Source: a virus. From it: 45,362 bases of DNA. This document shows, piece by piece, positions 2,691-45,179 of this stretch; within the stretch, counting starts at the first letter, position 1, and each line of letters begins with the position of its first letter. The stretch spans positions 1 to 45,362 of IMG/VR virus record IMGVR_UViG_3300031576_000097; one strand, written 5' to 3'. Under the pieces are notes generated by a model. That model did not search any database. It saw only the letters and a program-made list of their open reading frames with translations, and was not told the DNA's origin. The position numbers and the translations under genes are program-made.

Positions 2691-3167
2691 ATGGGACGTA
2701 TCGGCAATTTAATCGGCAGTGAATATACAAATTCTAGAGGATTGGTGTATATTAAGATCAGAAATGGCAGATTATGGCGGCAATGTTGGATACCTAAACA
2801 AAGGTTCCTAGTTCAGGGTATACTAGGAAGAGAACTTCTACCAGAAGAACGAGTTTTACGTGTTAGAGGCAATAAGAACCAATTCGATTTATGGATGTTC
2901 CAATTAATAAATTACAAAACTGGAGAGATTTTAAGATTTATAGGAGATGAAGGTGAATTTTATATAAAAAAAGTAAGTAAAATATGGTCTAACCAATATG
3001 ATAAGTGTCTGAAATGCCTAAAATGTCAATTCAAGTACGTATCAAGAGGTCTATGTTCACGTTGTTACAGAAAAGAGATGCAGACTTTTAAAAAAGAACT
3101 ACTTTCTAAGCGCAGTTCTAAGACCTTCCCACATGACCATGAAATCATTAAGTCTAGGAGTACTTAA
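2691..3167 (+). CDS. Degenerate HNH-like protein with C-terminal zinc ribbon
   Basis: 158 residues, the only rightward gene in this late region. Residues about 36-72 follow the layout of HNH_3 homing endonucleases: a strand, then LVQGILGRELLPEERVL, then RGNKNQ. The family's catalytic histidines (usually HR... and VHHxDGN) are replaced by KQR and VLRVRGN, so it should not cut like a normal HNH enzyme. C106, C109 or C112, C122 and C125 form a zinc ribbon. It is convergent with the terminase ATPase gene and overlaps its 3' end by 69 bases. A degraded or repurposed mobile endonuclease is the best reading. Confidence 0.65.
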   Translation: MGRIGNLIGSEYTNSRGLVYIKIRNGRLWRQCWIPKQRFLVQGILGRELLPEERVLRVRGNKNQFDLWMFQLINYKTGEILRFIGDEGEFYIKKVSKIWSNQYDKCLKCLKCQFKYVSRGLCSRCYRKEMQTFKKELLSKRSSKTFPHDHEIIKSRST

Positions 3168-3761
3168 TACTACAACTTGTCCACCACCTTTTATAGTAAA
3201 ACCTAAAGATTTCCAAGTATCTAGTATATAATCTGTTGAAGAAGTTTCATCCCAAATAATTAAAGAAGCTGTTTTTCCTCTAAGTTGATCTGGACCTGAA
3301 GCTACACCTTTTATAAAACCACCCATTTCTTCACATTCAATAATATTAAATTTTTTAGTAAGTTTTGGTAAATAAGGTTTAAACTCTGTTGGTATATTTT
3401 CATACATAAACCATACTCGTTCTACTAATAAATCATTTGCTTCTTCAGCTTTTCTTGATACTATATAGATACCTACATTTGGAAAGAATAAAAGTTTCCA
3501 TAATGCAAAAGCACAAGCTATCCAAGTAGCCATCATCCTTCTAGATTTGTTTATAATTAAAACTCTGTTTTCTAAAATAAGTTGAACAGTTATCTGTAAA
3601 TATTCTTCAGATACTGGCATTGGTCTAATAGCTTGAAACCCTAGATTACCTCTAGCTTCATCTACCGTTAAAACACAATCCTTAAAGAAATATATAGGAT
3701 TCTGAATCCACTCTTTAAGTTTTGATATCTTGTCCTTCTCTAGTTGTGATAATTTTGTCAT
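3099..3761 (-). CDS. Terminase large subunit, ATPase half (split gene)
   Basis: 220 residues holding only the packaging-motor ATPase domain. Walker A is NKSRRMMATW (about 71-80), the adapted P-loop common in TerL; Walker B is LIIWDE (167-172); the coupling motif is LSTP (199-202). The protein stops just after it (WEGLRTALRK). The usual RNase H-like nuclease domain is absent here but is encoded separately at 43972-44922; the two add up to about 536 residues, a normal TerL length. The ATPase half powers DNA translocation through the portal. Its 3' end overlaps the opposite-strand HNH-like gene. Confidence 0.88.
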   Translation of the reverse strand: MTKLSQLEKDKISKLKEWIQNPIYFFKDCVLTVDEARGNLGFQAIRPMPVSEEYLQITVQLILENRVLIINKSRRMMATWIACAFALWKLLFFPNVGIYIVSRKAEEANDLLVERVWFMYENIPTEFKPYLPKLTKKFNIIECEEMGGFIKGVASGPDQLRGKTASLIIWDETSSTDYILDTWKSLGFTIKGGGQVVVLSTPRLNDFMVMWEGLRTALRK

Positions 3762-3861
3762 TATTTAACTTTCTTAAAGTAAAAATAGTAATTCCATCCT
3801 TAATAGTTTTTTCAGCTTTGGATAAATCAAAGTTAAATACAGAAATATCTTTATCTTCCAT
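3715..3861 (-). CDS. Small hypothetical protein overlapping terminase start, 48 aa
   Basis: An ATG at 3861 opens 48 codons (MEDKDISVFNFDLSK...), overlapping the protease stop by 11 bases and the terminase ATPase start by 47 in a different frame. It fills an otherwise empty 89-base gap and may couple translation of the terminase, which lacks a clear Shine-Dalgarno site of its own. The protein is charged and matches nothing I know. It could be a chance frame. Confidence 0.4.
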   Translation of the reverse strand: MEDKDISVFNFDLSKAEKTIKDGITIFTLRKLNNDKIITTREGQDIKT

Positions 3862-4609
3862 ATGATATATATTTTATGTTAGGATTTACTTGTCCAGGAA
3901 GATTATTAACAAATCTATCTATATCATAACAAGATATACAAAAACCTAAATAACCACCGCCCCTTGGTGCAGAACTTCCAAAACTAACTATTCCTAGTAC
4001 TTCACCTTTAGTATTTAATAAAGGTCCTCCACTATTGCCACCTATAATATCAGTATCAGTTTGTATAGCATTAAATACAATAAATCCTGGACCTTTTAAA
4101 TTTTTTCTTATAGCTGAAATTACTCCAGTTGTTATACTCCAACTAAGTCCTAAAGGATGTCCAATTAATATAACCTTTTCACCAATCTTTACTTTACTTA
4201 GATTCGCTAAAGCTAGAACAATATATTCTGGATCTGGTGAATTAGTATCTGCTTTAGTTGTAAGTTCAAGTAGGGCTAAATCTCTTCCCTCATCTATATT
4301 AATTATTTTGCAATTAAAGATAGAACCATTATAAAAAGTAATTGAGATTATATCCTTTTGAAATACAACATGGGCAGCAGTTATTATTTGAATCTTATCT
4401 TCTTGTGTTACTTTATATACAAATCCTGATCCCAATCCTGCTATTAAGCCAGTTTCTGTCATCTTTAAGGTATTTACATATACTACACCTTTTTTACATT
4501 TGTTATATAGCCTTGGTACAGAATCTGTTACTTCAGATGTTACTTCTGAAAAGTCACAACTAGATCCCATTACCGCTAAAGCAAGTATACCAATTAGTAG
4601 TTTCTTCAT
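3851..4609 (-). CDS. Secreted trypsin/HtrA-like serine protease
   Basis: 252 residues. An N-terminal signal (MKKLLIGILALAVMG) ends in SSC, with Cys18 as a likely lipoprotein or secretion cleavage site. The trypsin-fold catalytic triad is complete: H80 in ITAAHVV, D110 in EGRDLALLEL and S193 in GGNSGGPLL, with LGSGFV before the first strand as in DegP/HtrA. No PDZ domain follows, so it is shorter than DegP. A signal peptide argues against a prohead protease and for action in the host envelope. It is the first leftward gene after the 0.66-kb non-coding region, just upstream of terminase. Confidence 0.85.
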   Translation of the reverse strand: MKKLLIGILALAVMGSSCDFSEVTSEVTDSVPRLYNKCKKGVVYVNTLKMTETGLIAGLGSGFVYKVTQEDKIQIITAAHVVFQKDIISITFYNGSIFNCKIINIDEGRDLALLELTTKADTNSPDPEYIVLALANLSKVKIGEKVILIGHPLGLSWSITTGVISAIRKNLKGPGFIVFNAIQTDTDIIGGNSGGPLLNTKGEVLGIVSFGSSAPRGGGYLGFCISCYDIDRFVNNLPGQVNPNIKYISYGR

Positions 4610-4831
4610 AGTTATTCCTCTTTAATAAAATCTAAGAACTTGTGCCATATTGTTAAGATGAAGTTTATCATAAGTATTATTATACGGTAGCTTTCGTGGA
4701 ACAGAGTTGCAAGGTATATTATAGAAGCTTTAGCAGAAAAATATAAAATTTTTTTTAATAGTACTATACTTTTCTAACAATCCTTTCTTGCACACATATG
4801 TTGTCGCATATAGTTCTTATAAATCCACAAC

Positions 4832-4852
4832 CCCGTCTGGGTGTCGGACGGG
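4832..4852. other. GC-rich hairpin
   Basis: CCCGTC (4832-4837) pairs with GACGGG (4847-4852) across a 9-base loop. It stands out in AT-rich DNA and lies 13 bases before the first CGCTAAAGC copy. No T-run follows, so it is not a plain terminator. Confidence 0.5.
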
Positions 4853-4864
4853 TGTAGGGTATAT

Positions 4865-5188
4865 CGCTAAAGCATACTACTACTCGGTAAACCTACCTAG
4901 CTTTAGCGTCTTCACTAAGCCTTGAAAAAACTGATACTGATATCATAATCCGCTAAAGCACACTATTATTTCCATATATCAGCAACACATACGAGGTCAT
5001 ATACTACTATCTTACTTGGTATCGTTGACTGTAGGCTCTGCTAGAGGCCTTAAAATCTTAATAATCATGGGTATATAAGGCTTTAGCGTTAGCTGATTAT
5101 GATGTCTGAATCAGTTTTAGACCGCTAAAGCAACATTTTAAGCCGAATGCCTTGGGGTATATGGCTTTAGCGGGTTTAGGCTTTAGCG
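4865..5188. repeat. Cluster of seven CGCTAAAGC repeats
   Basis: Exact 9-mer copies: plus orientation at 4865, 4951 and 5123; reverse (GCTTTAGCG) at 4900, 5080, 5164 and 5180. Those at 4950 and 5122 extend to the 11-mer CCGCTAAAGCA. In a roughly one-third GC genome such a 9-mer should occur by chance less than once in the whole molecule. The core GCT-AA-AGC is a short inverted repeat, as expected for a dimeric DNA-binding protein. Confidence 0.85.
4900..5131. repeat. Large imperfect palindrome flanked by CGCTAAAGC
   Basis: The left arm (4900-4959) and the reverse complement of the right arm (5080-5131) share the same order: GCTTTAGCG, TC, AAAACTGAT, a 20-base block (4931-4950 versus 5095-5114, 17 of 20 matching) and CGCTAAAGC. 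About 120 bases separate the arms and contain a further imperfect hairpin near 5031-5052. Such symmetry could form a cruciform or a long RNA stem. Confidence 0.75.
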
Positions 5189-5208
5189 TATATATCTTAT
5201 TACCAATT

Positions 5209-5237
5209 AAAAAAACCTGAAGGGTTTAATCTTCAGG
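5209..5237 (-). terminator. Rho-independent terminator, leftward
   Basis: Read leftward: CCTGAAG, 8-base loop, CTTCAGG, then seven T. It lies just after the stop of the 39-aa gene. A T-rich stretch also follows on the other strand, so it may work both ways and insulate the non-coding repeat region. Confidence 0.85.
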
Positions 5238-5274
5238 CTCTTTTATTTACCGGCTATTATGTTATTTTATCCGG

Positions 5275-5394
5275 TTAGTATCCTACATTTTTAATTCTAT
5301 CAAGTTCCTTATGCAAGTCTTTAAAAGCTTTAGCATCTTGTAAATTATGAAAATTTGCAATTATTTGTAAATTATGATCGTGTATTATAAACAT
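5275..5394 (-). CDS. Small protein, 39 aa, own promoter and terminator
   Basis: ATG at 5394, MFIIHDHNLQIIANFHNLQDAK..., ending KNVGY. GAGGT precedes the start, a phage-type promoter lies at 5419-5439, and a strong terminator follows, so this is a complete monocistronic unit despite its size. The peptide is mixed-charge and helical, and carries one GCTAAAGC in its coding DNA. Function unknown. Confidence 0.75.
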   Translation of the reverse strand: MFIIHDHNLQIIANFHNLQDAKAFKDLHKELDRIKNVGY

Positions 5395-5418
5395 GTTTGT
5401 TACCTCACTTTCAATATT

Positions 5419-5439
5419 AGTATACTATAATTAAGTTAA
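5419..5439 (-). promoter_or_regulatory. Phage-type promoter (TTAACT-N9-TATACT)
   Basis: Leftward TTAACT (5439-5434), 9-base spacer ending in G, TATACT (5424-5419). Drives the 39-aa gene with a leader of about 18 bases. Confidence 0.8.
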
Positions 5440-5521
5440 GATAAGATTAGTAATTATGTAGTATTAACCCTGTTTAATTAAATTAAGTTATGTGTATACT
5501 TATAGTAAGAGGATTAAATAT

Positions 5522-5614
5522 ATGCTTAAAAAACTTAAAGATTGGTTTACATTAAGATTTAACAATATGATTAAGCATTGGCTTGTTTTATATAGATACA
5601 GAAATTATAAATAA
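5522..5614 (+). CDS. Small basic peptide, 30 aa
   Basis: ATG at 5522 after AGAGGA; MLKKLKDWFTLRFNNMIKHW..., ending RYRNYK. It is Lys/Arg- and aromatic-rich and amphipathic, so membrane or RNA contact is possible. TATACT lies about 30 bases upstream, although its upstream box is poor. It is convergent with the two small membrane-peptide genes that follow. Confidence 0.5.
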   Translation: MLKKLKDWFTLRFNNMIKHWLVLYRYRNYK

Positions 5615-5619
5615 TCAAA

Positions 5620-5685
5620 CTAATCATTCCACAGCTTAATATAAAATAACATCATTATTCCTAATATTATTATTACTTCAATCAC
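5620..5685 (-). CDS. Possible 21-aa hydrophobic peptide
   Basis: A GTG at 5685 overlaps the stop of the upstream 49-aa membrane protein gene (TAGTG). The peptide is almost one transmembrane segment (IEVIIILGIMMLFYI) followed by KLWND. Small membrane peptides in tandem occur in phage superinfection or lysis modules. It is short enough to be chance. Confidence 0.35.
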   Translation of the reverse strand: MIEVIIILGIMMLFYIKLWND

Positions 5686-5834
5686 TAATCTATTACCAAT
5701 ACATTGCCTTGACTTACTGCTTTATTAATCACTTCTAGTTTATGATGTTCATAATCTGCTTGTAAATCCATTACATAGACTAATGAAGCTATTAAACTTA
5801 CTATACAAATAGTTATTGCTATTGTTTCTTTCAT
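5685..5834 (-). CDS. Small membrane protein, 49 aa
   Basis: ATG at 5834 with GAGGTG upstream, one base after the stop of the 95-aa gene. Residues 4-22 form a transmembrane segment (TIAITICIVSLIASLVYVM), followed by a polar tail (DLQADYEHHKLEVINKAV...). It would be a single-pass inner-membrane protein with the tail on one face. Function unknown. Confidence 0.65.
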   Translation of the reverse strand: MKETIAITICIVSLIASLVYVMDLQADYEHHKLEVINKAVSQGNVLVID

Positions 5835-5835
5835 G

Positions 5836-6123
5836 TTATTGCACCTCTTCATTGTTTAAATCTACTAACTTATAAATGCCATCTTTTATCTTCTTCTTAG
5901 TTGTTTTGGTATCTTCTCCTAAGAATTGATTTCGATACTTACTCGTTGTTATGCTATAATTCCAAGAATCTTGGTCTAAATATACAACTCTATCACCATT
6001 TTCAAATGTTGTCTTAACAATAATAGTCTTATAACTTTGAAAATATGTAGCATTTGGCGTGTTAATAATAAATTGATTTGGTATATCATTACCTTTATTA
6101 CTTGTTATATTACTTACTTTCAT
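5836..6123 (-). CDS. DUF8033-like phage protein, 95 aa
   Basis: About 95 residues from ATG 6123 (a TTG at 6141 is less likely). The core reads FQSYKTIIVKTTF...VVYLDQDSWNYSITTSKYRNQFLGE, which I recognise as the conserved block of a small phage protein family (DUF8033, named from memory). Its function is unknown; it is typical of accessory regions of diverse phages. It is in operon with the 44-aa gene before it and the 49-aa membrane protein after it. Confidence 0.75.
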   Translation of the reverse strand: MKVSNITSNKGNDIPNQFIINTPNATYFQSYKTIIVKTTFENGDRVVYLDQDSWNYSITTSKYRNQFLGEDTKTTKKKIKDGIYKLVDLNNEEVQ

Positions 6124-6127
6124 TATT

Positions 6128-6262
6128 TTATTTATCCTCAATCCCTAGTTTTTCCATTAGCGCATCTAGTTTTTTAATATACTCTTCAGTATCTGAAGTA
6201 CCAATGATGTTGCTAATATCCTTATCTTTATCAACTAGTATTTTTGTTATATCTTCTTCCAT
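6128..6262 (-). CDS. Small acidic protein, 44 aa
   Basis: ATG at 6262: MEEDITKILVDKDKDISNIIG..., ending EKLGIEDK. AAGGAT lies upstream. It is acidic and probably helical, with no recognised family. It sits 24 bases after the 67-aa gene and 4 bases before the DUF8033-like ATG. Confidence 0.6.
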   Translation of the reverse strand: MEEDITKILVDKDKDISNIIGTSDTEEYIKKLDALMEKLGIEDK

Positions 6263-6286
6263 TTTTATTAATCCTTAACAATACTT

Positions 6287-6490
6287 TTAAACCTTAAAAT
6301 CTATATACTCTGGCCTATTCCCTGTTAATGTTTCTCTTAATATTACATCAAACATATTCCTGTCTTGAAAGTATAAGTAGTCGCCGTAAGCCCTAGTCTT
6401 TTGATGATATATATTGTTTCTATATTTCTTACTATTAATATAGTAAGTATTTAGATAGTTTCTGAAAGCTTTTTTTATACCTCTTTTCAC
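6287..6490 (-). CDS. Small basic protein, 67 aa, near-leaderless
   Basis: GTG start at 6490; MKRGIKKAFRNYLNTYYINSKKYRNN... is rich in Lys, Arg, Tyr and Asn. The phage-type promoter at 6500-6520 would start RNA at about 6493, leaving a leader of only about 3 bases and no Shine-Dalgarno site. A small nucleic-acid-binding protein is possible from charge alone. Confidence 0.6.
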   Translation of the reverse strand: MKRGIKKAFRNYLNTYYINSKKYRNNIYHQKTRAYGDYLYFQDRNMFDVILRETLTGNRPEYIDFKV

Positions 6491-6499
6491 TACAATACA

Positions 6500-6520
6500 A
6501 TTATACTACTCTTTAGTTAA
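6500..6520 (-). promoter_or_regulatory. Phage-type promoter (TTAACT-N9-TATAAT)
   Basis: Leftward TTAACT (6520-6515), spacer AAAGAGTAG, TATAAT (6505-6500). Fits the family exactly and drives the 6490 to 5620 gene group. Confidence 0.82.
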
Positions 6521-6549
6521 GAAAACAATAAAACAAGGATTAATTAAAA

Positions 6550-6714
6550 TTAATCTTCTCTAGTAATACACTTATAATAACATTTATTATAACAAACTTG
6601 TTGATACTCATAATATTCACCACTACACCAATCTATACAAAAATCTATACAATTAGCTTTATTAAATAATATTATAGAAAATGAAAAAAGATAGCTAATT
6701 ATGAGATATTTCAT
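6550..6714 (-). CDS. Secreted cysteine-rich miniprotein, 54 aa
   Basis: The ATG at 6714 overlaps the upstream stop (ATGA). Residues 1-20 form a signal peptide (MKYLIISYLFSFSIILFNKA). The rest holds six cysteines at 22, 26, 30, 41, 45 and 49, a symmetric C-x3-C-x3-C, x10, C-x3-C-x3-C pattern that suggests two helices pinned by disulfides. Export to the periplasm would allow those bonds to form. I know of no family with this exact pattern in phages. An envelope-targeted inhibitor or exclusion factor is conceivable, but that is inference. Confidence 0.65.
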   Translation of the reverse strand: MKYLIISYLFSFSIILFNKANCIDFCIDWCSGEYYEYQQVCYNKCYYKCITRED

Positions 6715-7100
6715 AGTTTTACATACCGCTTACAATATGCTTTCATAAAAGATTCATTATATTCCCTTAAAGAAATTATAGGATTACTTGAATAAGCTTC
6801 TAGCATGTCTTCAATAATCCATTCAATTGTTTTAAATTGGATAACATTCTTAGCCTTAAGGATATTCGGCATAGCATATATAACTCTTTTTAGCATTATA
6901 CCAACTTCTAAGTGGGATTCTATTGAAGCATCAATAATATCATATAAAGAAATGTGAGGATTATCAGCTAACAAATTATTAATAGCTTTTATATGCAGCT
7001 CATATGTTAATCTAATTTCTTCATGTTCTTCCAGATTATTTAAAGGAAATTCAGGTTTTATATTAAATATCTTCTTTAAGAAATTGATTAATTTCTGCAT
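6711..7100 (-). CDS. Hypothetical protein, 129 aa
   Basis: 129 residues. The first 14 form an amphipathic basic helix (MQKLINFLKKIFNIK), which could bind membrane. The rest is helical, with several LL/II pairs and no motif I recognise. The start overlaps the 82-aa gene by 38 bases and the stop overlaps the Cys-rich gene start. It lies in the sigma-factor operon, so it is probably an early/middle accessory gene. Confidence 0.65.
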   Translation of the reverse strand: MQKLINFLKKIFNIKPEFPLNNLEEHEEIRLTYELHIKAINNLLADNPHISLYDIIDASIESHLEVGIMLKRVIYAMPNILKAKNVIQFKTIEWIIEDMLEAYSSNPIISLREYNESFMKAYCKRYVKL

Positions 7101-7311
7101 TTAATACCTCCACTTTATATTTGCCATATTTATAAAAACTTTTTTTAACTTCTTCATTAGCTTTGATTATATTAGCCACATGAAGTGTCATTAAACATGT
7201 CCTAGCAGCCTCAATTCCTCGTAATTTGGCACAATTAGATATATGATGTTTTGCAATTAACTCATTTGTATAATACTTAAGAACCTTGCACACTTTACAT
7301 TCATTTTTCAT
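7063..7311 (-). CDS. Hypothetical protein with N-terminal cysteine pairs, 82 aa
   Basis: 82 residues, MKNECKVCKVLKYYTNELIAKHHISNCAKLRG.... Cys5, Cys8, His22/23 and Cys27 could bind one zinc ion (CxxC...H...C). The remainder is helical. The ATG overlaps the stop of the sigma factor gene (ATGA), so the two are translationally coupled; a role as a partner or regulator of the sigma factor is possible but untested. Confidence 0.65.
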   Translation of the reverse strand: MKNECKVCKVLKYYTNELIAKHHISNCAKLRGIEAARTCLMTLHVANIIKANEEVKKSFYKYGKYKVEVLNAEINQFLKEDI

Positions 7312-8159
7312 AGCACATCACCTATTAACTTCTTAATATCAGGATTATTTAATTTATTTTTAGCTCTTACAAATATTTGTCTAGTTCGTTCTTCAGTTAT
7401 AGATAAATTACTAGCAAGATTCTCAAGTTTAGGCTTATCTTCAAAATAACCAAACATGTATTTAATAACATAGACTTCATGAGGCTCCAAATAATTAATT
7501 AATATACTATCTAAATTATCAGATAAATCCTTATTATCTATATGCTCTTGCAGATTAAAACTATCTTTAAGGGTTTCCTTTATTGTTATATCTTCATCAG
7601 TATCGTTTACTTTTTCATTAATAGATATTGAACCTTGCACAGATCTTATAGCTGATTTTAATTTATCTACAGATACATATAAAGCCGATGCTATCTCTTC
7701 ATCCGTTACTTCTCGACACGCAAGATTTTCAAGTTCACTTCTAATTATTAATGCTTTATTAGCTAATACAGCATGAGCAAATGGAACTTTATAAGTACCA
7801 GACTGTTCTGTTACAGCAATACCAATTAATTTTCTTATCCAATTATAAGCATATGTACTAAATTGCATACCTTTTTTAATATTAAACTTCTCAACAGCTA
7901 TTTTAATTCCTAAAGCACCCTCTTGACATAAATCTTCTAAACCTACACCACGGCCTACATAATTTTTAGCTATGCTTACAACTAATTTCATATTATGTTT
8001 AACAAGACTATTAAGAACTTCTTTTTCACCCTTTTGATACTTTTTAATTAAACAAACAATTTCATCTTGACTTAATATTTCATGATCAGCTATTGATTTT
8101 AAGTAATCCTTAACTTCAGGTTTTTTAAGTTCTTGTTTTAATGCTTCGTAGTTTCTCAT
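7308..8159 (-). CDS. Phage RNA polymerase sigma-70-family factor
   Basis: 283 residues. Region 2 spans about 48-118 (LVKHNMKLVVSIAKNYVGRG, EDLCQEGALGIKIAVEKF, FSTYAYNWIRKLI), matching the core-binding and -10-melting helices of RpoD. Region 3 is about 145-185. Region 4 is about 218-275, with the helix-turn-helix ITEERTRQIFVRAKNKL. Region 1.1 is lacking, as in alternative sigmas. It would redirect host RNA polymerase to phage promoters; the TTAAC-N9-TATA(A/C)T sites here are the obvious candidates. It is coupled to the 56-aa gene before it and the 82-aa gene after it. Confidence 0.9.
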   Translation of the reverse strand: MRNYEALKQELKKPEVKDYLKSIADHEILSQDEIVCLIKKYQKGEKEVLNSLVKHNMKLVVSIAKNYVGRGVGLEDLCQEGALGIKIAVEKFNIKKGMQFSTYAYNWIRKLIGIAVTEQSGTYKVPFAHAVLANKALIIRSELENLACREVTDEEIASALYVSVDKLKSAIRSVQGSISINEKVNDTDEDITIKETLKDSFNLQEHIDNKDLSDNLDSILINYLEPHEVYVIKYMFGYFEDKPKLENLASNLSITEERTRQIFVRAKNKLNNPDIKKLIGDVL

Positions 8160-9682: not shown

Positions 9683-9969
9683 GGTTATGCTAAAGCTGAT
9701 ATGCATGTCAGTTTTGAAGCAGGTATATAAGGATATACTACCAATAAGCTAAGGGTATTAGCTAAGTAGCTACTACAGTATCCTGTAGCTAAGTAAGAAA
9801 TACAGTAGAAGCTATTTAGCACCTGTATATAGCAACTAGCATCGGGGCTACTATGTGGTTATGCCAGTTACCATAACCTTTCGGCATATCATACTAATAT
9901 ATAGTATACCTAGTTTTTAGCAACTTAATTATTAAGATTTGAAAAGTATCAACAATAGTTGTTTTAGTG
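9683..9969. promoter_or_regulatory. Divergent early control region
   Basis: No gene is seen in the roughly 450 bases between 9655 and 10108. This part holds a GCTAAAGC (9689), two AGCTAAGTA direct repeats (about 9760 and 9787), a CTACAG-TATC-CTGTAG inverted repeat (9773-9788), a perfect 7-bp hairpin GGTTATG/CATAACC (9857-9878) that competes with a TATGCC/GGCATA pairing (9860-9888), and a leftward promoter-like site at 9903-9923. It looks like an operator-rich switch between the leftward and rightward operons. Confidence 0.65.
9903..9923 (-). promoter_or_regulatory. Promoter variant (TTGCTA-N9-TATACT)
   Basis: Leftward TATACT (9908-9903) with spacer AAAACTAGG, nearly the spacer of the 9662 site, but the upstream box is TTGCTA. 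A second, upstream start for the leftward operon is possible. Confidence 0.45.
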
Positions 9970-10018: not shown

Positions 10019-10095
10019 GGGCATGAATGGATTTGACTAAGATAAATCTGCATGTCAGACTTCTTAGGAACTGAGTTCGATTCTCAGCATGTCCA
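10019..10095 (+). ncRNA. tmRNA-like RNA: tRNA-like domain only, no tag frame
   Basis: 77 bases. The acceptor stem GGGCATG/CATGTCC pairs over 7 bp with a G-U at the third pair and a following A: the alanine identity signals of tRNA-Ala and tmRNA. The T arm is CTGAG-TTCGATT-CTCAG (10071-10087). There is no normal D or anticodon arm. Instead, GGATTTGAC (10029-10037) matches the tmRNA D-loop segment (GGATTCGAC), and a CTAAGA/TCTTAG stem (about 10037-10067) is capped by TCTG-CATGT-CAGA, recalling the tmRNA GCATG(C/T)C element. The tag-encoding part and pseudoknots are missing. CCA is not encoded. It starts at the predicted +1 and leads into the early operon. Confidence 0.65.
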
Positions 10096-10107
10096 TAGGA
10101 ATAAAAT

Positions 10108-10398
10108 ATGACAGACGAAAAGAAGATTTCTGAGTTAGAGCAAATAATTCTTTATGCAAGAGAAGATGGTACTTATAACTGGGAAGTAAAATTAAAACAG
10201 TGTGTTAAAAAACAAATAGAAACAGCAAAGCGTGAAGTTGCACAAAAGATTTTAGATGAGATAGTAATGGAATTAAAACCTAGAAGTAGTGCAATTATAG
10301 CAGGAATAAAACAGAAAACTTTGTATAGTTATGATGGTCAATGGATAGATAATTTGATAGAAGAACTCCGCCAAAAATACATTGGAGAAAAGAGATGA
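10108..10398 (+). CDS. Early protein, 96 aa, LRQKY(I/L)GEK family
   Basis: First gene of the rightward operon, 12 bases after the tRNA-like RNA, with AGGA upstream of the ATG. 96 residues: a charged N-terminus (MTDEKKISELEQ), a helix ETAKREVAQKILDEIV and a C-terminal motif ELRQKYIGEKR. The same N-terminal words, helix and tail recur in 12189-12680, and the tail in 11157-11294, so these are paralogues. Function unknown. Overlaps the next ATG (ATGA). Confidence 0.7.
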   Translation: MTDEKKISELEQIILYAREDGTYNWEVKLKQCVKKQIETAKREVAQKILDEIVMELKPRSSAIIAGIKQKTLYSYDGQWIDNLIEELRQKYIGEKR

Positions 10399-10688
10399 AT
10401 ACAAAGCGAGAATTAATTTTGATGGAATTACATAGAAGTCATTATATGCGAAATATAGCTACACAAATAAGAGCTAATTTAGTAGGTACATTCGCTAATG
10501 ACTATAACCAGACTTTTGCAAAAGCTACAGAAGGGGCTGGAGAACTTGCAATAGAACAATTTCCTATATTTTCTCATCTGATAGATATGTGGGTATCATT
10601 ATTAATTCATTGTGTATCAGATGCGTTTTTAGATGAAATATTAAACGCCATAGATAAAGTTGAAAAATTAAAAAAGGAAACGCCGTGA
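10395..10688 (+). CDS. Early hypothetical protein, 97 aa
   Basis: 97 residues, mainly helical (MNTKRELILMELHRSHYMRNIATQIRA at the start; FLDEILNAIDKVEKLKKE at the end). Its ATG overlaps the previous stop and its stop overlaps the next GTG, so three genes are coupled. It loosely resembles 12680-12994 in size and place, next to a LRQKYLG-family gene, suggesting a duplicated gene pair. No family known. Confidence 0.65.
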   Translation: MNTKRELILMELHRSHYMRNIATQIRANLVGTFANDYNQTFAKATEGAGELAIEQFPIFSHLIDMWVSLLIHCVSDAFLDEILNAIDKVEKLKKETP

Positions 10689-10900
10689 ACGAAAGGAAAA
10701 AGAAGAATGTTTTTATACTTTACGACCTTGTATTTATGCAAGTGTTTGAGAAGTATGAAGATGCTTTACACAAGAAAAAAGATATTAAAAATATTACTGA
10801 TAGTTTAAAAGATTATTTGAAATGGAAAGTCCCGCCTGTATCAATAGATTTTTTTCTATCAGAAGGGACGGCAAGAATCAGACAGAGGGATTTAAAATGA
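10685..10900 (+). CDS. Early hypothetical protein, 71 aa
   Basis: GTG start at 10685, overlapping the previous TGA. A basic 71-residue protein (MNERKKKNVFILYDLVFMQVFEKYED...) with a helical centre and an Arg-rich end. Unknown; the coupled start makes it credible. Confidence 0.6.
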   Translation: MNERKKKNVFILYDLVFMQVFEKYEDALHKKKDIKNITDSLKDYLKWKVPPVSIDFFLSEGTARIRQRDLK

Positions 10901-12994: not shown

Positions 12995-13209
12995 CATTGA
13001 TATATACATCAGAAGAAAAAGCAAAAGATAGTGTTTCATTACAACACTTAGATGAAATACTTGAAGAGAGGGACAAGAGAAATGAATCACTAATAAGTAA
13101 ATTATTTGGTCTATATTATAGTGGGCCTGATACTTTAATTGATGCTCTTGCCAAAGTGGCCGTTATTGTAGCATGTATTAGCATTGTGAGAACATTTGGT
13201 ATGAACTAA
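12991..13209 (+). CDS. Tail-anchored membrane protein, 72 aa
   Basis: 72 residues: a charged helical N-terminal part (HLDEILEERDKRNESL) and a C-terminal transmembrane segment (ALAKVAVIVACISIVRTF). AGGAGG precedes the ATG. It is coupled to the next gene, a phospholipase A2-like protein (TAATG at 13207-13211), so the pair may act at the same membrane. Confidence 0.65.
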   Translation: MTLIYTSEEKAKDSVSLQHLDEILEERDKRNESLISKLFGLYYSGPDTLIDALAKVAVIVACISIVRTFGMN

Positions 13210-13589
13210 TGACAAGGTTAAGCTTTTATAAGGATTTAACTAAAGACCAAAGAGCTATTTACGGTAATGGTTGTGGTCCAGGCTTGGCTAACTTAGATAA
13301 GATAATTCCAGAGTTTAGGTGGCAACATGCATGTAGGAGACATGACTTTAATTATGATAGAGGTGGTACTGAAGAAGATAGAAGAGAATCCGATAACCAA
13401 TTTAAAGTGCAGATGCTAAATAGTATAAAAGGTTTAAGTATTTTACAAAAGATTTATTATACTCCTATAATTTATACTTACTATTATGCAGTTAGAATTG
13501 GTGGGTACTTTGCATTTTCAAGAGGTCATTACAAAAATTTACCAGAGTTGATAAAATTTGCTAATAAGAAATATGGGATAAAACTATGA
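13209..13589 (+). CDS. Phospholipase A2-like protein, 126 aa
   Basis: 126 residues. YGNGCGPG (18-25) resembles the calcium-binding loop of phospholipase A2, and CRRHDFNYD (42-50) gives the HD-x2-Y arrangement (H45, D46, Y49); D57/D62 in DRRESD could serve as the second Asp of the dyad. Members hydrolyse the sn-2 ester of phospholipids. No signal peptide is seen, so it would act from the cytoplasm unless carried by a partner; the C-terminal half has hydrophobic aromatic stretches (IYYTPIIYTYYYAV). It directly follows the small membrane protein. Confidence 0.65.
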   Translation: MTRLSFYKDLTKDQRAIYGNGCGPGLANLDKIIPEFRWQHACRRHDFNYDRGGTEEDRRESDNQFKVQMLNSIKGLSILQKIYYTPIIYTYYYAVRIGGYFAFSRGHYKNLPELIKFANKKYGIKL

Positions 13590-17558: not shown

Positions 17559-18044
17559 ATGAGAAACAAGGATGAGAAGAAGTATAAGACGCTAGAGAAA
17601 GCGATAAGGTTGTCTATACAGTTACATAAGGGTCAATTGGATATGGCACATGAACCATACTTTTTGCACCCCCTAAGAGTAATGCAGAGAGTAGCACCAG
17701 ATATAGAAGCTATGACAGTCGCTATACTGCATGATGTGGAGGACGTTAAAGATGGGATTAGGAAAGTTAAAAGAGCTAGATTACCACGACATATTTTTAA
17801 AGCAATATCTTTACTTGCATTCGATTACAACAAGGCAGGCACACCATACACCACCTACATTAAAAGAGTACAGTGCAATAGATTGGCCACCAGGGTCAAG
17901 GTCGCTGATTTGCAGGATAATCTCAATAGCAGAAGGCTCTTATTTATCAGAGCAGCAGTTGCACGACTTGGGAGAAATTATAATAAATGGTTAAAAGAAC
18001 ACAGAAAAGCATTAAAATTTCTGAAGAAATTAAACAAGCATTAA
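17559..18044 (+). CDS. RSH/MESH1-type HD hydrolase (ppGpp hydrolase-like)
   Basis: 161 residues, only the hydrolase domain. HKGQ (23-26), EPYFLHPLRV (32-41), LLHD-like ILHDVED (57-62) and RVKVADLQDN (112-121) correspond to the HD metal and ribose contacts of SpoT and MESH1. There is no synthetase, TGS or ACT domain. Such enzymes remove the 3'-diphosphate of (p)ppGpp, relieving the stringent response; other nucleotides such as ppApp or NADPH are possible substrates. It has its own near-leaderless promoter. The loop after HDVED is long and basic, which is unusual. Confidence 0.8.
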   Translation: MRNKDEKKYKTLEKAIRLSIQLHKGQLDMAHEPYFLHPLRVMQRVAPDIEAMTVAILHDVEDVKDGIRKVKRARLPRHIFKAISLLAFDYNKAGTPYTTYIKRVQCNRLATRVKVADLQDNLNSRRLLFIRAAVARLGRNYNKWLKEHRKALKFLKKLNKH

Positions 18045-43971: not shown

Positions 43972-44922
43972 TTACATTGGAATAGACATTCCGCCCCTTC
44001 TTCCTTTAACCTTTTTTTCATTAATTCCGTCAAATTTATAGAAATATACAAATAATGGTCTAACTGCATCGCTTACATGATCGTTCCAATTATCTTTAAT
44101 AAATCCTGAAGTTATAACTGGTTGACCATCTATAGAAATTTCTCTTCTCCTATAACCTCCTCCAAACATTTCATTCAAATCTCTATCATCTGGATTTGTA
44201 GTTACTAATGGTAAACCTTTAATTACAGATTTTCCTAATATTCTATTTATTAAATCTACTCCATCGTGTACATGATGCCATTTATAAAATGGCACAAATC
44301 CCTTAATCCTCATTAATTCAAATGGACTAGCTTGACCAGATTTAGTAAATCCGGCTCCGTTTGCTTGTAATCCTTCTTGAGTCATACACCATTTAATCTT
44401 TGAATGTGGAAATTCTCTTTGAGCATATTTGTAAATTGCATCTAAGAATATATCTAAATCTTGATCTTTTCCTCTTACTGTATGGTGAAGGTGGAGGAAG
44501 GTATGACCTTGTTTATCTTCTGCTTGAGCGATGATAGCACAAGGGTGATGAAAACCAAAATCAATAGATATATATACAGGAACACCCATAAGATAACCAG
44601 GATAGTGTTTAGTATGAAAATCAGGATCGAAGTTAAAATAAGCAGCAAGTTTTTGAGTAGCAGCATAAGGATTATTCTCCATTTCTTCTTGCCATATTGG
44701 GTTATCTTTACCACCCATTGTTTCGGCAAGCCAATCAAAATATTGTTGAACTGAAGCTATTGGATTAAGTTTTTGCCTTCTTCTTTCTTCATTAACAACA
44801 TCTAAATCTATACTTTCTTCTGTTTGGGCACGATAATTTAAAGTAAGGCAGGTATACCCATCAGAGTTTTGATGTATATGTACACCTTCCATTATTTTAG
44901 TTTTAGGTGGATCTTTTCTCAT
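43972..44922 (-). CDS. Terminase large subunit, nuclease half (split gene)
   Basis: The ATG at 44922 shares bases with the upstream stop (TAATG). 316 residues. Residues 11-60 continue what follows the coupling motif in a normal TerL (GVHIHQNSDGYTCLTLNYRAQTEE). Then comes the RNase H-like nuclease: VYISIDFGFHHPC (D121) and DHVSDAVRPLF (D281/D285). The usual second Asp (as in C-DPAG) is replaced by T-QEG near 181-184. No Walker motifs are present; those are in the separate gene at 3099-3761. It cuts concatemeric DNA during packaging. Confidence 0.85.
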   Translation of the reverse strand: MRKDPPKTKIMEGVHIHQNSDGYTCLTLNYRAQTEESIDLDVVNEERRRQKLNPIASVQQYFDWLAETMGGKDNPIWQEEMENNPYAATQKLAAYFNFDPDFHTKHYPGYLMGVPVYISIDFGFHHPCAIIAQAEDKQGHTFLHLHHTVRGKDQDLDIFLDAIYKYAQREFPHSKIKWCMTQEGLQANGAGFTKSGQASPFELMRIKGFVPFYKWHHVHDGVDLINRILGKSVIKGLPLVTTNPDDRDLNEMFGGGYRRREISIDGQPVITSGFIKDNWNDHVSDAVRPLFVYFYKFDGINEKKVKGRRGGMSIPM

Positions 44923-45179
44923 TATTTTAACCACTCATCTTTCAATTCTTCAGAGTCTTCTTTGTAGTATTTTTTGTAATAGCTATTGGAAATTCTTGTC
45001 TTATGTTTTTTAGCGTCTTTCCTCAAATCATTGATTCTGCTCTTATGACTAAAATCAGTTTCATCTGGATTACGTTCTGCTTCTATCTCATGAGGATAAT
45101 TTTCCTTTAAATATGTATACTTTAGTTTTTTACCAAAAGAGGCTCTTTTAAAACTGTTAATAGATTCATAATTAGCCAT
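44922..45179 (-). CDS. Hypothetical protein before the terminase nuclease, 85 aa
   Basis: 85 very charged, basic residues (MANYESINSFKRASFGKKLK..., DLRKDAKKHKTRISNSYYKKYYKEDSEEL). It is coupled to the nuclease gene by TAATG, so the two proteins are made together; a DNA-binding helper of packaging is possible. Its size is smaller than most small terminase subunits. Confidence 0.65.
   Translation of the reverse strand: MANYESINSFKRASFGKKLKYTYLKENYPHEIEAERNPDETDFSHKSRINDLRKDAKKHKTRISNSYYKKYYKEDSEELKDEWLK

Follow-up and report, generated by a model that had tools for sequence, protein, structure and literature searches.

The locus at 10019-10095 of a phage DNA raises the question of what a virus may do with a tmRNA which has kept its tRNA-like domain (TLD) and lost its message. 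The window, i.e. the whole stretch of 45,362 nucleotides analysed here (IMG/VR record IMGVR_UViG_3300031576_000097), contains at this place, on the plus strand, a 77-nt RNA gene that consists of the TLD of tmRNA only and does not encode the CCA end. Its sequence reads GGGCATG-AAT-GGATTTGA-CTAAGA-TAAA-TCTG-CATGT-CAGA-CT-TCTTAG-GAA-CTGAG-TTCGATT-CTCAG-CATGTCC-A. A preliminary description of this DNA had proposed a tmRNA of this reduced kind, and all the features it named are found in the sequence and in the fold of 10019-10095 (Table 1). The acceptor stem has 7 bp with the G3-U70 pair and the discriminator A73, and the RNA shares the other hallmarks of the tmRNA family (RF00023) as well: the D motif GGATTYGAC occurs as GGATTTGAC (10029-10037) while a D stem is absent, the T loop conforms to TTCRANT, and a P2 stem is present. 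The pairing of CTAAGA with TCTTAG, which the preliminary description did not mention, gives a closed P2 with the GCATG hairpin inside, and the two P2 strands are separated by 19 bases only. A CATG, CACG or CAAG loop like that of the inner hairpin is seen in many relatives. The minimum-energy fold is composed of the acceptor, an open D region, the hairpin-closed P2 and the T arm, exactly as in the TLD of tmRNA; the mRNA-like domain (resume codon, tag ORF and stop) and the pseudoknots are missing both from the RF00023 match and from the fold. In other words, this is a phage tmRNA reduced to its TLD, in which a short P2-closing hairpin replaces the pseudoknots and the tag frame.

Table 1. Features of the TLD-only RNA and its immediate surroundings in the window
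Feature	Position	Strand	Evidence
TATAAT, a -10-like hexamer whose spacing would put +1 at G10019	10007-10012	+	sequence; offset peak among copies
Acceptor stem, 5' strand GGGCATG	10019-10025	+	sequence, fold; acceptor covariation in relatives
D region AATGGATTTGA, single-stranded	10026-10036	+	sequence, RF00023 match, fold
P2 stem, 5' strand CTAAGA	10037-10042	+	fold; P2 covariation in relatives
Inner hairpin TCTG-CATGT-CAGA (GCATGTC hairpin), closing P2	10047-10059	+	fold
P2 stem, 3' strand TCTTAG	10062-10067	+	fold; P2 covariation in relatives
GGAA ahead of the T stem	10067-10070	+	sequence
T arm CTGAG-TTCGATT-CTCAG	10071-10087	+	fold; T-stem covariation in relatives
Acceptor stem, 3' strand CATGTCC (contains U70), followed by discriminator A73 (10095)	10088-10095 (stem 10088-10094)	+	acceptor covariation in relatives
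Shine-Dalgarno-like AGGA and spacer, beginning one base past A73	10097-10107	+	sequence; AGGAATAAAATATG identical in sister phage
ORF of 96 aa without a family match, the first in the rightward transcript	10108-10398	+	protein family scan

The Rfam tmRNA model, suggested as a check in the preliminary description, matches the locus end to end (10019-10098, model positions 1-374, 44.7 bits, E 2e-16); 17 bases stand where the model has about 310 positions. The match thus covers all but the message part, and together with the fold it bears out the idea of a tmRNA TLD that lacks this part. The score falls 2.3 bits short of the gathering score of RF00023 (47 bits), and neither a default Rfam gathering run nor ARAGORN reported 10019-10095 in the window. 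A BLAST search of the RNA against a phage collection gave short local matches only, several of them to tRNA genes, and none over most of its length. The class model R1, which has the window among its building sequences, scores the RNA at 63.9 bits. In 40 Markov simulations of the window a comparable acceptor and T arm appeared 0.025 times per window, and never together with the D motif. The folding energy is unremarkable on its own (z -1.9); the case for this RNA rests on homology and covariation, not on folding energy. A tRNA-Ala is contradicted by the absence of a D stem and of an anticodon stem-loop with an alanine anticodon (ARAGORN, fold). A permuted or two-piece tmRNA was rejected, as the acceptor strands stand in the normal order.

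Relatives were collected by pattern scans of IMG/VR for the tmRNA D motif closely before a T arm and by one scan of bacterial and archaeal genomes; a copy was accepted when at least 6 of 7 acceptor pairs and all 5 T-stem pairs were formed. True and chance pattern matches separate cleanly. The matches listed comprise at least 89 distinct RNAs at 141 loci (a few loci overlap, so that contigs are slightly overcounted), with lengths of 69-91 nt and a mode of 79. Spacings up to 120 were scanned and yielded only two longer credible forms (122 and 137 nt), so that the class is a discrete one. Each of the 23 viral records searched with RF00023 gave one match at a strict cut-off, above the gathering score in 21. 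Unclear candidates, among them L003, L004 and L006, failed the acceptor test and were discarded. ARAGORN reports almost none of the class, and its 343-nt tmRNA calls in three contigs (L019, L023 and L070) look spurious, as there is a complete mini-tmRNA inside each span.

Of close relatives of the window phage only one contig was found, and covariation was drawn from the wider class instead. The compensatory changes to which the preliminary description had looked in related phages are strong in acceptor pairs 4-7, the T stem and P2. Among 30 sequences 95.3% of the P2 and T-stem cells are paired, as compared to 58.6% after shuffling and 38-54% when the strands are slid; these stems contain 140 two-sided changes, and a P2 pair can take as many as six standard types while breaks are few. 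In the acceptor and T stem of 31 sequences the paired fraction is 99.7%, versus 74.2% for the control. Since the search patterns already contained the D motif and the T loop, the conservation of these two is not independent evidence. The acceptor has a different status: the first wide scan left it unconstrained and showed G3-U70 in every true copy, and later scans fixed U70 but not G3. Among the matches listed G3-U70 is present in all 89 distinct copies, about 30 of which come from the acceptor-blind pattern. G1-C72, G2-C71 and G3-U70 are invariant whereas pairs 4-7 vary freely with compensation. G3-U70 and A73 are alanine identity elements, and an invariant G3-U70 next to freely varying pairs points to selection for alanylation rather than for shape alone. 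Anatomy, homology, class covariation and the invariance of the charging signals are established, and the earlier idea of a chargeable but non-tagging RNA is probably correct, judging by the conserved identity elements and compensated stems.

The gene contexts of the class are diverse. Three Streptomyces phages, LuckySocke, GiJojo and pSt2308, carry copies of 57-61 bits that are unannotated or lie under a hypothetical ORF; these copies sit in a tRNA array, with tRNA-Val on one side and tRNA-Ser on the other, and the same flanking tRNAs are found in two uncultured contigs (L008 and L041). Other copies adjoin terminase, major head protein, exonuclease, endolysin, HNH, replication or integrase genes. 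In Streptomyces lycii (L101) a mini-tmRNA at 4824-4901 lies beside an integrase gene (5167-6783), probably in a prophage. A viral contig (L053) has a Pistol ribozyme (10682-10769, 62.2 bits) about 2 kb from its mini-tmRNA. No constant neighbour gene was found across the contexts examined, which makes it probable that the RNA works in trans and has a host factor as its target. The phage Riptide has a diverged mini copy with G3-U70 at 83298 and, in addition, a full tmRNA, tag frame included, at 94862-95130. TLD-only tmRNAs are also present in Poribacteria, where they score 64-70 bits in about 10 of the 79 genomes sampled (1501-1586 in both L141 and L144; also L084, L086, L093, L095, L099, L106, L112 and L116), and a full tmRNA is located elsewhere in 6 of 8 genomes with the mini form. 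In L141 and L144 the mini-tmRNA is found at the end of a decarboxylase-like ORF.

The preliminary description had further placed the transcription start at the first base of the RNA. This is upheld in part: the TATAAT hexamer is ideally spaced for a start at G10019, and a -35 consensus was not found upstream of it. Among 40 upstream-distinct copies the -10-like hexamers peak at exactly the offset seen in the window (5 copies, about 1 elsewhere), which is modest evidence for a promoter; the window phage is a low-GC one (32%). A sigma-70-like factor with regions 2 and 3 is encoded on the minus strand at 7308-8159 and may set early or late promoter use, the mini-tmRNA promoter included. The divergent intergenic region at 9730-9880 contains AGCTA-rich repeated words, noted by eye only, that are similar in a sister phage. 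No terminator was found between the RNA and the next gene, and among 40 copies a single one has a standalone terminator on its 3' side. The sister phage (IMGVR_UViG_3300031576_000096), whose portal protein is 84% identical to that of the window phage, has the same downstream gene preceded by the same AGGAATAAAATATG. Its upstream RNA is a weak match to R1 (27.9 bits, E 1e-5): P2 can still pair (CAAACG/CGTTTG), but G3-U70 and the T loop are lost and the TLD fold is gone. This copy has clearly decayed; the mini-tmRNA is therefore dispensable in the sister lineage, which counts against an essential function there.

The preliminary description had thought of a decoy, a charging sensor or a removable mRNA leader as possible roles. 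In the window phage the RNA might serve mainly as a structured leader at the 5' end of the early mRNA, either removed by tRNA-type 3' processing ahead of the Shine-Dalgarno sequence or protecting the transcript. The -10-like box that puts +1 at the first base, the AGGA one base past A73 and the lack of a detected terminator before the next gene would suit such a role; on the other hand, alanine identity, T loop and tmRNA D motif would be superfluous in a leader, and in the sister phage the fold has gone while the gene and its Shine-Dalgarno sequence have stayed. Most relatives do not head an operon, and since the class is also found within arrays of tRNA genes and next to many unrelated genes, a removable mRNA leader cannot be its general role; we regard a leader function as unlikely even for the window phage. 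That the RNA descends from a captured host tmRNA and is now in decay, or that it was left behind by an integration at a host tmRNA gene, seems to us very unlikely. The decayed copy of the sister phage would agree with it, and tmRNA genes are often used for prophage integration (PMC10865867), but every element is intact in the window copy, no integrase was found among the window proteins tested (part of the ORFs was scanned), and the relatives show strong covariation within a narrow size range. An attachment site would moreover bring the 3' part of a tmRNA only; as the 5' half is present too, we reject this origin.

It is instructive to compare the RNA with known systems. Reportedly, a TLD-only tmRNA of mycobacteriophage DS6A (tmID 11587) was listed by Mao et al. 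in 2009. The tmRNA of this phage has been described as 'TLD only' (PMC4131195, PMC11915505), and by this description (PMC4131195) the two are alike: both are phage-encoded and contain little beyond the TLD of tmRNA and no message part. They differ in that the window copy, carried by a phage of low GC content, stands where transcription is predicted to start, and in that the class now counts dozens of sequences. With full-length tmRNAs (RF00023; in phages, for instance, those of Sushi23, Riptide, Melnitz and Bxz1) the RNA has in common the acceptor with G3-U70 and A73, the T arm, the stemless D region and P2, but it lacks the pseudoknots, the resume codon and the tag frame and measures 77 nt as opposed to roughly 230-400. 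The tag-less organelle tmRNAs, i.e. those of jakobid mitochondria and the approximately 65-bp plastid forms of Mallomonadaceae, have likewise lost the message part and kept the tRNA-like part, yet they are not phage-borne in hosts that have a full tmRNA. The likeness to tRNA-Ala is confined to the alanine identity given by G3-U70 and A73 and to the T arm, since the D stem and the anticodon arm are missing and the D motif is that of tmRNA.

The best explanation, to which we give about an even chance, is that the TLD-only RNA is alanylated, bound by SmpB and EF-Tu and admitted to stalled ribosomes, where it competes with the host tmRNA and adds no tag. We infer that the RNA would be transcribed early from its own first base, processed at the 3' end and provided with CCA, and then charged by the host AlaRS via G3-U70 and A73. 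SmpB and EF-Tu would bind the alanylated form. Stalled ribosomes would receive it in their empty A site instead of the host tmRNA, SmpB would be taken up as well, and during infection both trans-translation and the tagging by ssrA would be blocked or redirected. To our knowledge the known tmRNA partners, S1 excepted, all bind the TLD. An alanyl-TLD with SmpB and EF-Tu has been crystallised on a stalled ribosome without a message part (PMC3968760), and in E. coli the endogenous tmRNA is inhibited by the DS6A form (PMC11915505). Another TLD-only molecule of this sort is strongly inhibitory whether chargeable or not, perhaps by titration of SmpB (PMC4131195). As this published inhibition is independent of charging, a decoy alone leaves the invariant G3-U70 unexplained; in a simple SmpB sponge such invariance would be unexpected. 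A pure blocker is also a strained assumption for Riptide and six Poribacteria genomes since their own trans-translation would suffer. The invariant charging signals and the coexistence with full tmRNA are better accommodated by a charged RNA that goes into the ribosome and there either blocks it or rescues it without a tag.

The latter possibility is the main rival. Alanyl-mini-tmRNA with SmpB and EF-Tu would take over the nascent peptide at stalled ribosomes, and the complex would be dismantled tag-free; ribosomes would then be recycled, phage proteins spared, and mRNA-cleaving toxins would find no message part. We consider this reading of the window RNA rather doubtful. The invariance of the charging signals speaks for it, as do the full tmRNAs of Riptide and Poribacteria, next to which blocking would be self-defeating, and the mitochondrial tmRNAs that have no tag frame are believed to help with incomplete mRNAs even so (PMC11915505). 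Against this, the release of a peptidyl-TLD without a resume codon has no known step, and the sole functional data, those on DS6A, show inhibition. The corresponding statement about the class, i.e. that alanyl-charged, SmpB-dependent, tag-free rescue RNAs are widespread and are kept by phages beside or instead of a full tmRNA, and by some Poribacteria too, we put forward tentatively, as a minority possibility. A dedicated alanyl donor to some non-ribosomal enzyme of phage or host is in our opinion highly improbable: the predicted charging and the lack of an anticodon arm would suit it, but no amino-acid transferase was identified nearby and a D region of the SmpB type would be needless. Taken together, the RNAs form a large, almost unnoticed phage family of stripped-down tmRNAs, which probably interferes with host ribosome rescue or reroutes it.

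The kind of RNA is already known from DS6A, the only phage TLD-only example in the literature searched, where it figures as a curiosity, and the window copy is an addition to this kind. The open-licence literature searched does not mention how broad the class is, that its charging signals do not vary, that a copy can stand at a predicted start site, that it occurs together with full tmRNA or that Poribacteria have such a form, though earlier reports are possible. The class escapes standard annotation, as ARAGORN is nearly blind to it and the window copy lies just below the Rfam threshold. At least 89 distinct copies with invariant charging signals make phage manipulation of trans-translation a general question, and the cultured Streptomyces phages, which grow on standard hosts, make the class directly testable.

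A few other genes of the window deserve mention. A 220-aa N-terminal domain of the terminase large subunit is encoded at 3099-3761 (minus strand), and the product of 43972-44934 (minus strand) reads like the nuclease half of a terminase, with no family match; possibly the terminase is split, with its halves several small genes apart if the contig is circular. A trypsin-like protease is encoded at 3851-4609 (minus strand) and a weakly phospholipase A2-like protein at 13209-13589 (plus strand). In the early region, the plus-strand gene at 17559-18044 specifies an HD-type metal-dependent phosphohydrolase that reads like a (p)ppGpp hydrolase.
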